Below, piece by piece: positions 21,234 through 23,554 of a stretch of 64,000 nucleotides of DNA. Position numbers and translations under genes: made by a program. A model generated the notes under the pieces. That model saw only the letters and a list, made by a program, of their open reading frames with translations. It did no database searches and had not been told where the DNA came from. Source of the stretch: Polaromonas sp. C04 (GTDB lineage: Bacteria; Pseudomonadota; Gammaproteobacteria; Burkholderiales; Burkholderiaceae_C); the NCBI RefSeq assembly GCF_002002705.1, contig NZ_MUNS01000034.1:1-64000 (forward strand). Reading direction: 5' to 3'. Position 1 is the first letter of the stretch. Every line of letters starts with the position of its first letter.

Positions 21234-21971
21234 TTAGAGGCTGCGCTGGCGCAGCGCCTCGTACAGGCACACGCCACTGGCCACCGACACGTTCAGGCTC
21301 TCCACCGCCCCGCGCATCGGGATGTTCACCAGCTCGTCGCAGGTCTTGCGCGTGAGCTGGCGCATCCCGTCGCCCTCGGCGCCCAATACCAGCGCTACCG
21401 GGCCCTTGAGGTCCACCTGGTAGATGGACTTGGGCGCGTCGTCGCTGGTGCCGATGCACCAGATGCTGCGCTCCTTCAGCTCGCCCAGCGTGCGCGCGAG
21501 ATTCGTCACCATGAAGTACGGCACGGTCTCGGCCGCGCCGCTGGCGACCTTGGCCACGGTGGCGTTGATGCCGGCCGCGTGGTCCTTGGGCGCGATCACG
21601 GCGTGCGCGCCGGCGCCGTCGGCCACGCGCAGGCAGGCGCCCAGGTTGTGCGGATCCGTCACGCCGTCGAGCACCAGCAGCAGCGGCGGTCCTTCGATCT
21701 GATCGAGCAGGTCGTCGAGCGAATGCACCTGCGCCAGCGGCTGCACCCGCGCCGCCACGCCCTGATGCCCGTGGCTGCCCGCCAGCTTGGCCAGCCGCAG
21801 GCCATCGGCCTCGATCAGCCGCGCCCCGGCCTCGGTGGCGCGCTCCAGAAACTGGCGCATGCGCGCGTCGCGGCGCGTCGGCTCGTAAAAAATCTCGATG
21901 ATGGATTGCGGCGCGGTCTTGAGGCGCACGCCGACAGCGTGGAAGCCGAAGAGTACTTTGGGGGACGACAT
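21234..21971 (-). CDS. rlmB: 23S rRNA (guanosine-2'-O-)-methyltransferase RlmB
   Basis: A 245-residue SpoU-family enzyme with an N-terminal substrate-binding domain ([16 protein letters not shown]) and the three SPOUT motifs: [30 protein letters not shown] and [15 protein letters not shown]. It methylates G2251 of 23S rRNA (E. coli numbering). The rnr gene, its usual partner, is not adjacent. Confidence 0.92.
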
Positions 21972-21997
21972 GCCGAGATTATCGATGCTGGGAGGGT

Positions 21998-22024
21998 GCT
22001 ATCAAATAGATAGCAATCTTCGCT
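21998..22024. repeat. dispersed mini-repeat, copy E (short)
   Basis: GCTATCAAATAGATAGCAAT is a dyad (GCTATC/GATAGC) followed by CTTCGCT, matching the left end of the repeat family. It lies just upstream of rlmB. Confidence 0.55.
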
Positions 22025-22092
22025 CGCCAACTGAGGCCGAACGACTGTAGCGGCATTGAAACCCGTACAGGCGAGATCGCCGCCGACTTAAG

Positions 22093-22109
22093 TGTCGGAA
22101 TCTTTTACA
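22093..22109 (+). promoter_or_regulatory. candidate enhancer site for the sigma-54 promoter
   Basis: TGTCGGAATCTTTTACA lies about 62 bases upstream of the -24 element, at a normal distance for a sigma-54 activator. It resembles motifs I recall upstream of PEP-CTERM genes thought to bind PrsR. This is a weak, memory-based inference. Confidence 0.3.
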
Positions 22110-22171
22110 AAGCGGAGGCCATTCTTTACGAAATGAATTCAGCACATTGATTTCATTAAATAAATTCAATA

Positions 22172-22186
22172 GGCACCAAAGTTGCT
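22172..22186 (+). promoter_or_regulatory. sigma-54 promoter (-24/-12)
   Basis: AGGCACC-AAAG-TTGCT has GG at 22172-22173 and GC at 22184-22185, exactly ten bases apart. This matches the RpoN consensus TGGCAC-N5-TTGCW at nearly all conserved positions. It lies about 75 bases before the PEP-CTERM start codon in an AT-rich gap. PEP-CTERM genes are known to be often RpoN-controlled. Confidence 0.75.
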
Positions 22187-22259
22187 TTGTAACAAATAGT
22201 TCAGTTTGAAGCATGAAGTTTTCAAGACTGCCCTAACAACTTAGCCCTGGATTGGAACC

Positions 22260-22862
22260 ATGTTTTCATTAAAAAGCATCCGTGTCGTAGCAATTGTTTT
22301 GGCCTTTTCCGGGAGCTTGTTTTCTCTGCAGGCAAAGGCGGATCCCGTTGTTACTTACACCTGGACGACGACGAGTCAGGGTTATGGACCACATGTGGGC
22401 CAGCCGTCGTTGGCTACATTTGACGCAAGCCTAAGCGCTGTGCAGAGCGGAAAAATAACCGCGAACGATATTTCAAATATCCAGCTTTTTTATCCTGGAC
22501 TGACATTCAACAATTCCGTGGTGAGCACAACTGGTTTTGACTTTGGTGCCTATGTCAATCCGGTTACGGGTGCCCTTGTTTTCCACGACGATCAGCAAGG
22601 GCTGGCACTGATCGCTTTTGCGGGTGCTTTCATCAACGACGCGACCACTTTTCTGTCGATCACATTCGACAACCCGGTGTCGAACGCTGTTAAAGATCAG
22701 TTCAACGCACTCAATAATGGCAGCGCTTACGCGGGCTATCCTACTGCCGGCTATTGGACCGCAACCTTGCCGGCGGGCAACAGTGTCCCCGAACCGGGCT
22801 CTTTGGCTTTGCTGGGTTTGGGCATTCTGGGGATTGCCGCAATACGCCGGCGCAAGCAATAA
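22260..22862 (+). CDS. PEP-CTERM sorting-domain protein
   Basis: A 200-residue exported protein. The signal peptide is residues 1-27 (cleavage near LQAKA-DP). The C-terminus SVPEPGSLALLGLGILGIAAIRRRKQ is the PEP-CTERM signal: the PEP motif, a membrane helix and an arginine-rich tail, recognised by exosortase (EpsH). The middle is Ser/Thr/Asn-rich with no known domain. It is lower in GC than its neighbours. No exosortase or exopolysaccharide genes lie in the window, so it is an orphan substrate, probably surface or matrix associated. Confidence 0.9.
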   Translation: MFSLKSIRVVAIVLAFSGSLFSLQAKADPVVTYTWTTTSQGYGPHVGQPSLATFDASLSAVQSGKITANDISNIQLFYPGLTFNNSVVSTTGFDFGAYVNPVTGALVFHDDQQGLALIAFAGAFINDATTFLSITFDNPVSNAVKDQFNALNNGSAYAGYPTAGYWTATLPAGNSVPEPGSLALLGLGILGIAAIRRRKQ

Positions 22863-22910
22863 GGTTGTTTTTGCCCCTCGCCGGAATGCGGGGATTTGAG
22901 AGCTCGCCCC

Positions 22911-22930
22911 CAGTTGCCCAGTTGCCCAGT
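22911..22930. repeat. short tandem repeat
   Basis: CAGTTGCCC occurs twice in tandem, followed by CAGT, in the convergent gap between the PEP-CTERM gene and the lipoprotein gene. Confidence 0.5.
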
Positions 22931-22984
22931 AACCGCGGCAGTGCGCGTTGCGAGCGCGCCACTGGGCGAGTCCCATGAATAGCC

Positions 22985-23554
22985 TTAATGCACCGCGACA
23001 GCGGCGGCATCCGCACCCGACTGCAACGGGCCGAGCGGATTGTTCTGTTGCTCGATCCGGTCGGTATAGGCTTGCCCCGCAAAGTTGCGAAACAGCACGG
23101 TATCGCCGCTGATCACAATCAATGCGTCAAACCACCACCCGGTCACCTTCGTGGTACGGCGCACGTTCAAAAAGTCCAGCCAGAAACTGCCTTCGCGCTG
23201 GCGATGTTGCCGCTCAAAATGAAACTGGTAGCCACGGCAGGTGGTTTGCGCCTCGATGCACTGGCGGATGCCGGGGTCGAGTTTGGCGAGGGGTACGCCC
23301 GGATTGGGCACCAGCCGCCCGACAATCTCGGGGTAGGGAATCAGCGTGACATTGCGCCCGTCGACCGGGTCGAACCCGATGTTCTTGAGTTCAGAGGTGC
23401 GCGTCTGCAGAGCCATGATCCGCTGTGCCGCCGCTGCAGCTTCTTCGAAACTGGCGAAACCCGCGGGTGTATCGGTGCTGGCTCGCGGCAACAGCGAGGA
23501 ACAGGCACAAAGCGCCGCGCAGGAAAGCGGGAGGAAGAGGGGACGGTATCTCAT
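22985..23554 (-). CDS. hypothetical lipoprotein
   Basis: A 189-residue protein starting MRYRPLFLPLSCAALCACSS. The lipobox LCAC predicts a lipid-anchored mature protein from Cys18. I do not recognise a domain; conserved-looking parts are NIGFDPVDGRNVTLIPYPEI and SFWLDFLNVRRTTKVTGWWF. The start is the Met next to the signal peptide; a longer reading would absorb the FNR-type box upstream. The gene stands alone, with a perfect FNR/Anr site 68 bases before the start. Confidence 0.75.
   Translation of the reverse strand: MRYRPLFLPLSCAALCACSSLLPRASTDTPAGFASFEEAAAAAQRIMALQTRTSELKNIGFDPVDGRNVTLIPYPEIVGRLVPNPGVPLAKLDPGIRQCIEAQTTCRGYQFHFERQHRQREGSFWLDFLNVRRTTKVTGWWFDALIVISGDTVLFRNFAGQAYTDRIEQQNNPLGPLQSGADAAAVAVH

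Follow-up and report, generated by a model that had tools for sequence, protein, structure and literature searches.

The PEP-CTERM gene at 22260-22862 of the Polaromonas sp. C04 window (the whole stretch of 64,000 nucleotides analysed) very probably belongs to the PrsK/PrsR regulon; its product would be a substrate of the XrtA exosortase, and its promoter would work through PrsR, an IHF-induced bend and sigma-54. Judged from sequence, we give this reading a probability of about 85%. Both the gene and its control by PrsR and RpoN represent an ordinary case of a known system, the core of which is known. Within the searches made, two features are new for the PrsR regulon, namely helix-turn clusters in the spacer between the two known promoter elements and an IHF-like third element inside that spacer; the literature searched, in which subscription journals are thinly covered, yielded no mention of either IHF or helical spacing in connection with this regulon. 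It also seems fairly likely that the regulon has one standard promoter, consisting of a PrsR site, a fixed IHF bend and a PrsR-IHF distance varying only by whole turns, and that PrsR commands through it, besides PEP-CTERM proteins, a second cassette for an exported protein whose partners are PqqD-like and HPr-kinase-like. The three-part model sharpens the search for members of the regulon, those lacking a PEP signal included, and makes IHF gating of the regulon directly and cheaply testable. The seemingly isolated gene itself turns out to be an ordinary member of the regulon, gained or lost along with its own promoter.

The PEP-CTERM gene, its promoter and its genome

The features of the locus are as follows.

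22016-22967, no strand: segment without blastn match in genome G003, where about 100 other bases stand; holds promoter and gene
22093-22109, plus strand: putative PrsR upstream element (motif 1 of Haft et al.), TGTCGGAATCTTTTACA; read exactly, matrix score 25.9 bits
22140-22152, plus strand: putative IHF-consensus match, CAGCACATTGATT; 8 of 9, 31 nt before motif 2, unchanged in genus mate G004
22171-22187, plus strand: sigma-54 -24/-12 element (motif 2 of Haft et al.), AGGCACCAAAGTTGCTT; from sequence reading and matrix, unchanged in G004
22260-22862, plus strand: PEP-CTERM protein gene, 200 aa; from the ORF list, profile scores and orthologues
22260-22340, plus strand: probable Sec signal peptide, predicted, residues 1-27, ending in QAKA; read from the translation
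22785-22859, plus strand: PEP-CTERM sorting signal (VPEP, hydrophobic helix, RRRKQ); from the translation and profile scores

According to the available text of Haft et al. (2006; PMC1569441), a 17-nt motif 1 ending in TTTACA and a sigma-54 motif 2 precede the majority of proteobacterial PEP-CTERM genes (99 of 167); the spacer averages 62.8 (SD 10.6, range 32-92), and motif 2 lies on average 71 nt before the start codon. The same authors tie this promoter type to PrsR (a response regulator), PrsK (a kinase) and PrsT (a TPR protein). A connection of such promoters with PrsR and sigma-54 is already in the literature and is no new inference. As read here, the two outer elements of the locus are motif 1 and motif 2 of the PrsK/PrsR regulon at about the mean published distances, the spacer being 61 bp and the distance from motif 2 to the ATG 72 nt.

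The upstream element reported in the earlier note was confirmed as TGTCGGAATCTTTTACA exactly at 22093-22109, near the published mean distance; its score of 25.9 bits compares with a training mean of 25.5 for a matrix built from 81 sites of other genomes. The GG-N10-GC sigma-54 element claimed there likewise proved exact in its spacing, with GG at 22172-22173, GC at 22184-22185 and ten bases between (AGGCACCAAAGTTGCT) within the element at 22171-22187. Compared with the sigma-54 consensus, which we take to be TGGCACRNNNNTTGCW, AGGCACCAAAGTTGCT has other bases where the consensus has its first T and its R. From the -12 position, transcription is predicted to start at about 22197. The IHF-like CAGCACATTGATT at 22140-22152 was absent from the earlier note. 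In a both-strand matrix scan of the 64-kb window, the composite (motif 1, spacer and motif 2) of this gene was the only one above the thresholds used. A terminator-like hairpin at 22083-22098, overlapping motif 1, was set aside as chance because it is not kept in G004 (CCAAC for CCGAC).

The 200-aa protein, whose C-terminus is SVPEPGSLALLGLGILGIAAIRRRKQ, passed the cut-offs of both Pfam PF07589 (PEP-CTERM; 33.8 bits versus 20.7) and TIGR02595 (28.5 bits versus 16), and the SVPEPGS, helix and arginines first noticed at its end are thus borne out as VPEP, hydrophobic helix and RRRKQ. It was not filed as the floc protein PepA, because its score with the PepA model NF033554 (39.7 bits) was under the cut-off of 80. 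An AlphaFold model made from four input sequences had a mean pLDDT of 30.3. The gene is solitary and apparently a single-gene unit, both flanking genes being on the opposite strand; from their translations, we take these neighbours to be an rlmB-like methyltransferase gene and a lipoprotein-like gene. The description of the gene as an orphan stands as far as position is concerned and falls as a mark of oddness, since solitary PEP-CTERM genes are normal, indeed the rule (Haft et al., PMC1569441, available text); on the same ground, the idea that it is an orphan because it was displaced from an EPS locus was rejected.

The gene sits on contig C45 of the source genome (4.17 Mb, 45 contigs), and it had been proposed from the letters alone that its regulation ties it to a distant system, with a genome lacking an exosortase named as the finding that would speak against this. 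One exosortase match was found in the genome, an XrtA-EpsI fusion on contig C3 (XrtA TIGR03109, 342.9 bits, cut-off 208) near an XrtA-system polysaccharide deacetylase and a glycosyltransferase. The prsK and prsR genes, for which a search had been suggested, were found adjacent to prsT on contig C7, beside a sugar transferase (PrsK 837.1, PrsR 723.8 and PrsT 892.2 bits, all above cut-off; TIGR02916, TIGR02915, TIGR02917). The proposed distant system does exist, with XrtA, prsK-prsR-prsT and the gene on three different contigs, and the earlier reading is supported. IHF-beta (TIGR00988) scored 122.7 bits against a cut-off of 119.95, and a match was present in all seven genus genomes searched (five above the cut-off, two just below with 116.2 and 113.3). 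Additionally, six NtrC-type activator matches, PrsR included, imply the presence of rpoN.

Six PEP-CTERM matches were found in the genome. Three are preceded by the composite, namely the present gene and those on C43 and C22, so that a promoter of the same kind does occur before other PEP-CTERM genes, where the earlier note had suggested looking for it. A further composite precedes a non-PEP-CTERM gene after prsT on C7. The PEP-CTERM genes on C11 and C17 have no composite and that on C2 has a poor one (motif 1 of 4.7 bits, spacer 84); PrsR is therefore not the sole control of PEP-CTERM genes.

Spacing and an IHF-like third element across genomes

The strict composite was defined as TGTCGN5TTTTACA, 48-78 nt and GGCN8TGC, with the same pattern backwards as control, and its occurrence is far above chance. 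It was found twice in the source genome, at 19 sites in 13 of 150 family genomes (own included), where the backwards control gave none, and at 65 sites in 46 of 369 class genomes (own included), where the control had no match in any genome among those listed. PrsK was present in 12 of the 13 composite-bearing family genomes versus 27 of 137 others (Fisher p 2.4e-7); the exception, G073, has the composite, nine PEP-CTERM matches and no PrsK at E 1e-60. By itself the 17-nt element says little, because with up to three mismatches it gave 38 matches in the own genome versus 25 in the backwards control. A looser composite (14 matches in the own genome versus 9 backwards) was mostly noise, and only its matches on C45, C43 and C7 were kept.

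The site collection comprises 83 distinct sites from 58 genomes, 20 of them in the family and 63 outside it (the class set); six further copies of motif 1 were left out of the count for want of an acceptable sigma-54 box. Two sites of the family set are from the source genome, and the second site of locus L117 came from the fetched locus, not from the pattern. The collection pattern covers only spacers of about 47-77, within the published range, and the sites are uncurated: at some, the DNA downstream lacks a good ORF, and a few may have arisen by chance. A PEP-CTERM regular expression, which is strict and misses variants as well as genes cut by the locus end, matched downstream ORFs at 17 of the 20 family sites and 19 of the 63 class sites.

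A TTGAT lying about 24-25 nt before motif 2 was first noticed in the family set. With its seven upstream bases, it corresponds on the minus strand to the IHF consensus, which we take to be YAANNNNTTGATW and which served as the yardstick for every IHF match here. This main register, noticed in the family set, was tested on the held-out class set (n = 63). Matches of 7 of 9 or better at -34 to -29 were present at 12 of 20 sites in the discovery family, 29 of 63 held-out sites and 41 of 83 sites overall; shuffling the held-out set gave a mean of 4.7, and none of 2000 shuffles reached 29. By offset, the held-out matches numbered 29 at -34 to -29, one at -40 to -35 and nine at -24 to -19. A second register, with the consensus in forward orientation, lies at -22 to -17 and was seen at 17 of 63 class sites, which is not an independent test because this register was noticed in the class set itself. 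One or other register was matched at 42 of 63 sites (shuffle mean 8.6, maximum 18 in 1000 shuffles). A 7-of-9 match was missing from the main register at 34 of 63 held-out sites and from both registers examined at 27 of 83 sites.

The spacer element might instead be A/T-rich DNA that serves RNA polymerase alpha or intrinsic bending and looks IHF-like by composition, which we consider unlikely. Such a reading accords with the A/T-rich stretch before the -24 box, present with or without the consensus (promoter-side DNA after the consensus is 88% A+T in held-out matching sites and 77% in non-matching ones), and with the report that some sigma-54 enhancers have conserved A/T-rich DNA in place of IHF (PMC4740811, in the text available); however, matches of 8 of 9 or better occurred at 16 of 63 held-out sites versus 0.57 in composition-preserving shuffles. 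Moreover, the consensus letters taken backwards in the same place matched at only 6 of 63 sites (7 of 9 or better) and at none of 63 (8 of 9 or better), and spacer windows clear of the main register gave 0 to 2 of 63.

The spacers themselves form clusters at about 51, 63 and 74 bp, one DNA turn apart (83 sites, 58 genomes). Specifically, 10 lie at 50-54, 47 at 60-65, 25 at 68-77 and one at 83, this last value coming from the rescoring of one locus. Spacers of 55-59 and 66-67 occurred at none of the 83 sites; a smoothed control puts 18.6 sites in these gaps and gave at least 5 in every one of 20,000 draws. With kinship ignored, the Rayleigh R of the 83 sites was 0.67 for a period of 10.5 bp and about 0.70 for one of 11-11.5 bp. 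The clusters were noticed on the combined set of 83.

It is very unlikely that these clusters record merely the shared ancestry of a few promoter families, with no constraint on spacing. Sites of the same lineage are indeed not independent and the statistics carry no tree correction, but when one site was taken per genome (58), there were 5 short, 33 middle and 19 long spacers and one at 83, and the gaps stayed empty. The orthologues also argue against ancestry. In Massilia, an orthologue with 61% protein identity is present in two records, counted as one because they have the same motifs and spacer (IHF was scored in one); it has a weak motif 1-like TGTCGACAAACTTGACA (10.7 bits), an IHF match of 8 of 9 at -31, the sigma-54 box CGGCACGATTGATGCTT and a spacer of 51, 10 bp shorter than 61. 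Between the two orthologues, the distance from motif 1 to the IHF match differs by 10 bp and that from the IHF match to the sigma-54 box is constant.

Irrespective of spacer class, 33 of the 41 main-register sites have the match at -31 to -33 (six offsets searched). Because the register is fixed and the spacers are clustered, the distance from motif 1 to the IHF match takes values of 20-24, 30-34 and 41-44 across these 41 sites. The predicted IHF bend thus appears to be tied to the promoter, with the activator displaced by whole turns. Within the source genome, the composite on C22 has an IHF match of 9 of 9 at -32 with a spacer of 63, and that on C43 has 7 of 9 at -32 (8 of 9 forward at -31) with a spacer of 76. 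The C7 composite fits poorly, with 7 of 9 at -37.

Gene history and proposed mechanism

Among 149 genomes (own included) searched at E 1e-8, the gene was found only in its own genome and in G004 (95%). In G004 the sigma-54 and IHF-like elements are the same and the spacer is also 61, and motif 1 is TGTCGGGATTTCTTACA in the same place, with 3 of 17 bases different from TGTCGGAATCTTTTACA. In two other genus mates, G003 and G001, the two neighbours of the gene are adjacent; the segment without match is 22016-22967 in the former and 22017-22978 in the latter, in which 109 bases take its place. Since promoter and gene are missing as one segment, the comparison indicates that they were gained or lost together, by gain or by loss either way. 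G001 has no PEP-CTERM matches and no PrsK. In G005, rlmB is present and both the gene and the lipoprotein gene are absent within the 1.5 kb examined; this genome is uninformative on the site, as are G006 (only a 51% rlmB match) and G002 (none). The G+C content is 51.7% in the gene, 37.1% in 22093-22259 and 64.7% in the 64-kb window.

It is very unlikely that another activator or sigma-70 drives the gene and the composite is a relic, as the motif 1 differences from G004 and the three other PEP-CTERM genes of the genome without a good composite might suggest. A search of 21950-23100 gave no sigma-70-like site facing the gene, the one match (0.8 expected) being on the opposite strand, and G004 has the same sigma-54 and IHF-like elements at the same spacing, with a similar arrangement in Massilia.

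As a member of the PrsK/PrsR regulon, the gene would be switched on when the membrane kinase PrsK phosphorylates PrsR and PrsR binds motif 1 at 22093-22109. IHF would bind and bend the spacer at 22140-22152, and the bend would bring PrsR, on the right face of the helix, onto the sigma-54 RNA polymerase at 22171-22187, where PrsR would open the promoter. Sec would then export the protein, its C-terminal helix would hold it, and XrtA would cut and sort it, after which it would become part of the extracellular polymer layer. We infer PrsR binding, IHF binding, the bend and XrtA processing from the elements and genes described above. IHF often assists looping at sigma-54 promoters (review PMC7057263), and the sigma-54 enhancers of Vibrio qrr tolerate indels of 10-11 bp (PMC4740811); IHF-assisted looping and helical spacing tolerance are carried over to PrsR by analogy with the systems in the available parts of these papers. 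Likewise, a presumed role for the exported protein is drawn from other PEP-CTERM proteins only, which are required for flocculation in some activated-sludge bacteria (PMC9850573, text available).

Other genes behind the composite and comparison with known systems

In the source genome, the composite after prsT (L052:5177-9033, contig C7, minus strand) precedes the gene for a 209-aa non-PEP-CTERM protein with no NCBIfam match, followed by PqqD_rel_X (TIGR04353), HprK_rel_A (TIGR04352), a 369-aa ORF and an HtrA-like protease. In three other genomes (L127, L131 and L137), the composite is followed by genes for similar proteins with a hydrophilic leader, an Arg pair and a hydrophobic stretch. A scan of the ORF that follows, made for two of the three, scored 67.2 bits for PqqD_rel_X in one and 33.7, just below the cut-off of 35, in the other. 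Proteins of the 209-aa type may be substrates of the HPr-rel-A system.

At L134, L135 and L144, the composite stands before genes that, from their translations, we take to encode diguanylate cyclases. A GGDEF-type end is visible in L134 and L144; L135 resembles L134 and is cut by the locus end. Their position behind the composite suggests a c-di-GMP branch of the PrsR regulon. Two further names were read from translations: the composite of L149 precedes what is presumably a lytic-transglycosylase-like gene, and that of L166 lies about 250 bases upstream of a presumed ATPase gene.

The gene and its surroundings resemble the PEP-CTERM/EpsH system (PMC1569441) in the C-terminal signal, the 17-nt motif ending in TTTACA, motif 2, the distances and the solitary position, and also in having EpsH/XrtA, PrsK, PrsR and PrsT in the genome. 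Unlike the present account, section 7 of that paper describes neither helix-turn spacer clusters nor an IHF-like site, and the term IHF does not occur in its main text. The pepA gene of Aquincola tertiaricarbonis RN12, whose transcription is RpoN1-dependent with a mapped start (PMC9850573, available text), is likewise a PEP-CTERM gene with a -24/-12 element (TGGCAC, CTGCTT) and an enhancer predicted earlier upstream. It adjoins prsT, whereas the 22260-22862 gene and prsT are on different contigs. The IHF-assisted sigma-54 enhancers of nifH, glnHp2 and Pu (PMC7057263, PMC4740811, as far as these texts were available) share the order of activator site, IHF site and sigma-54 box; in contrast to them, the IHF sites here are predicted ones, and a near-fixed register recurs across a regulon. 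Finally, the qrr enhancers (PMC4740811, in the part available) are alike in a spacing quantised by the helix and differ in their activator and regulon.
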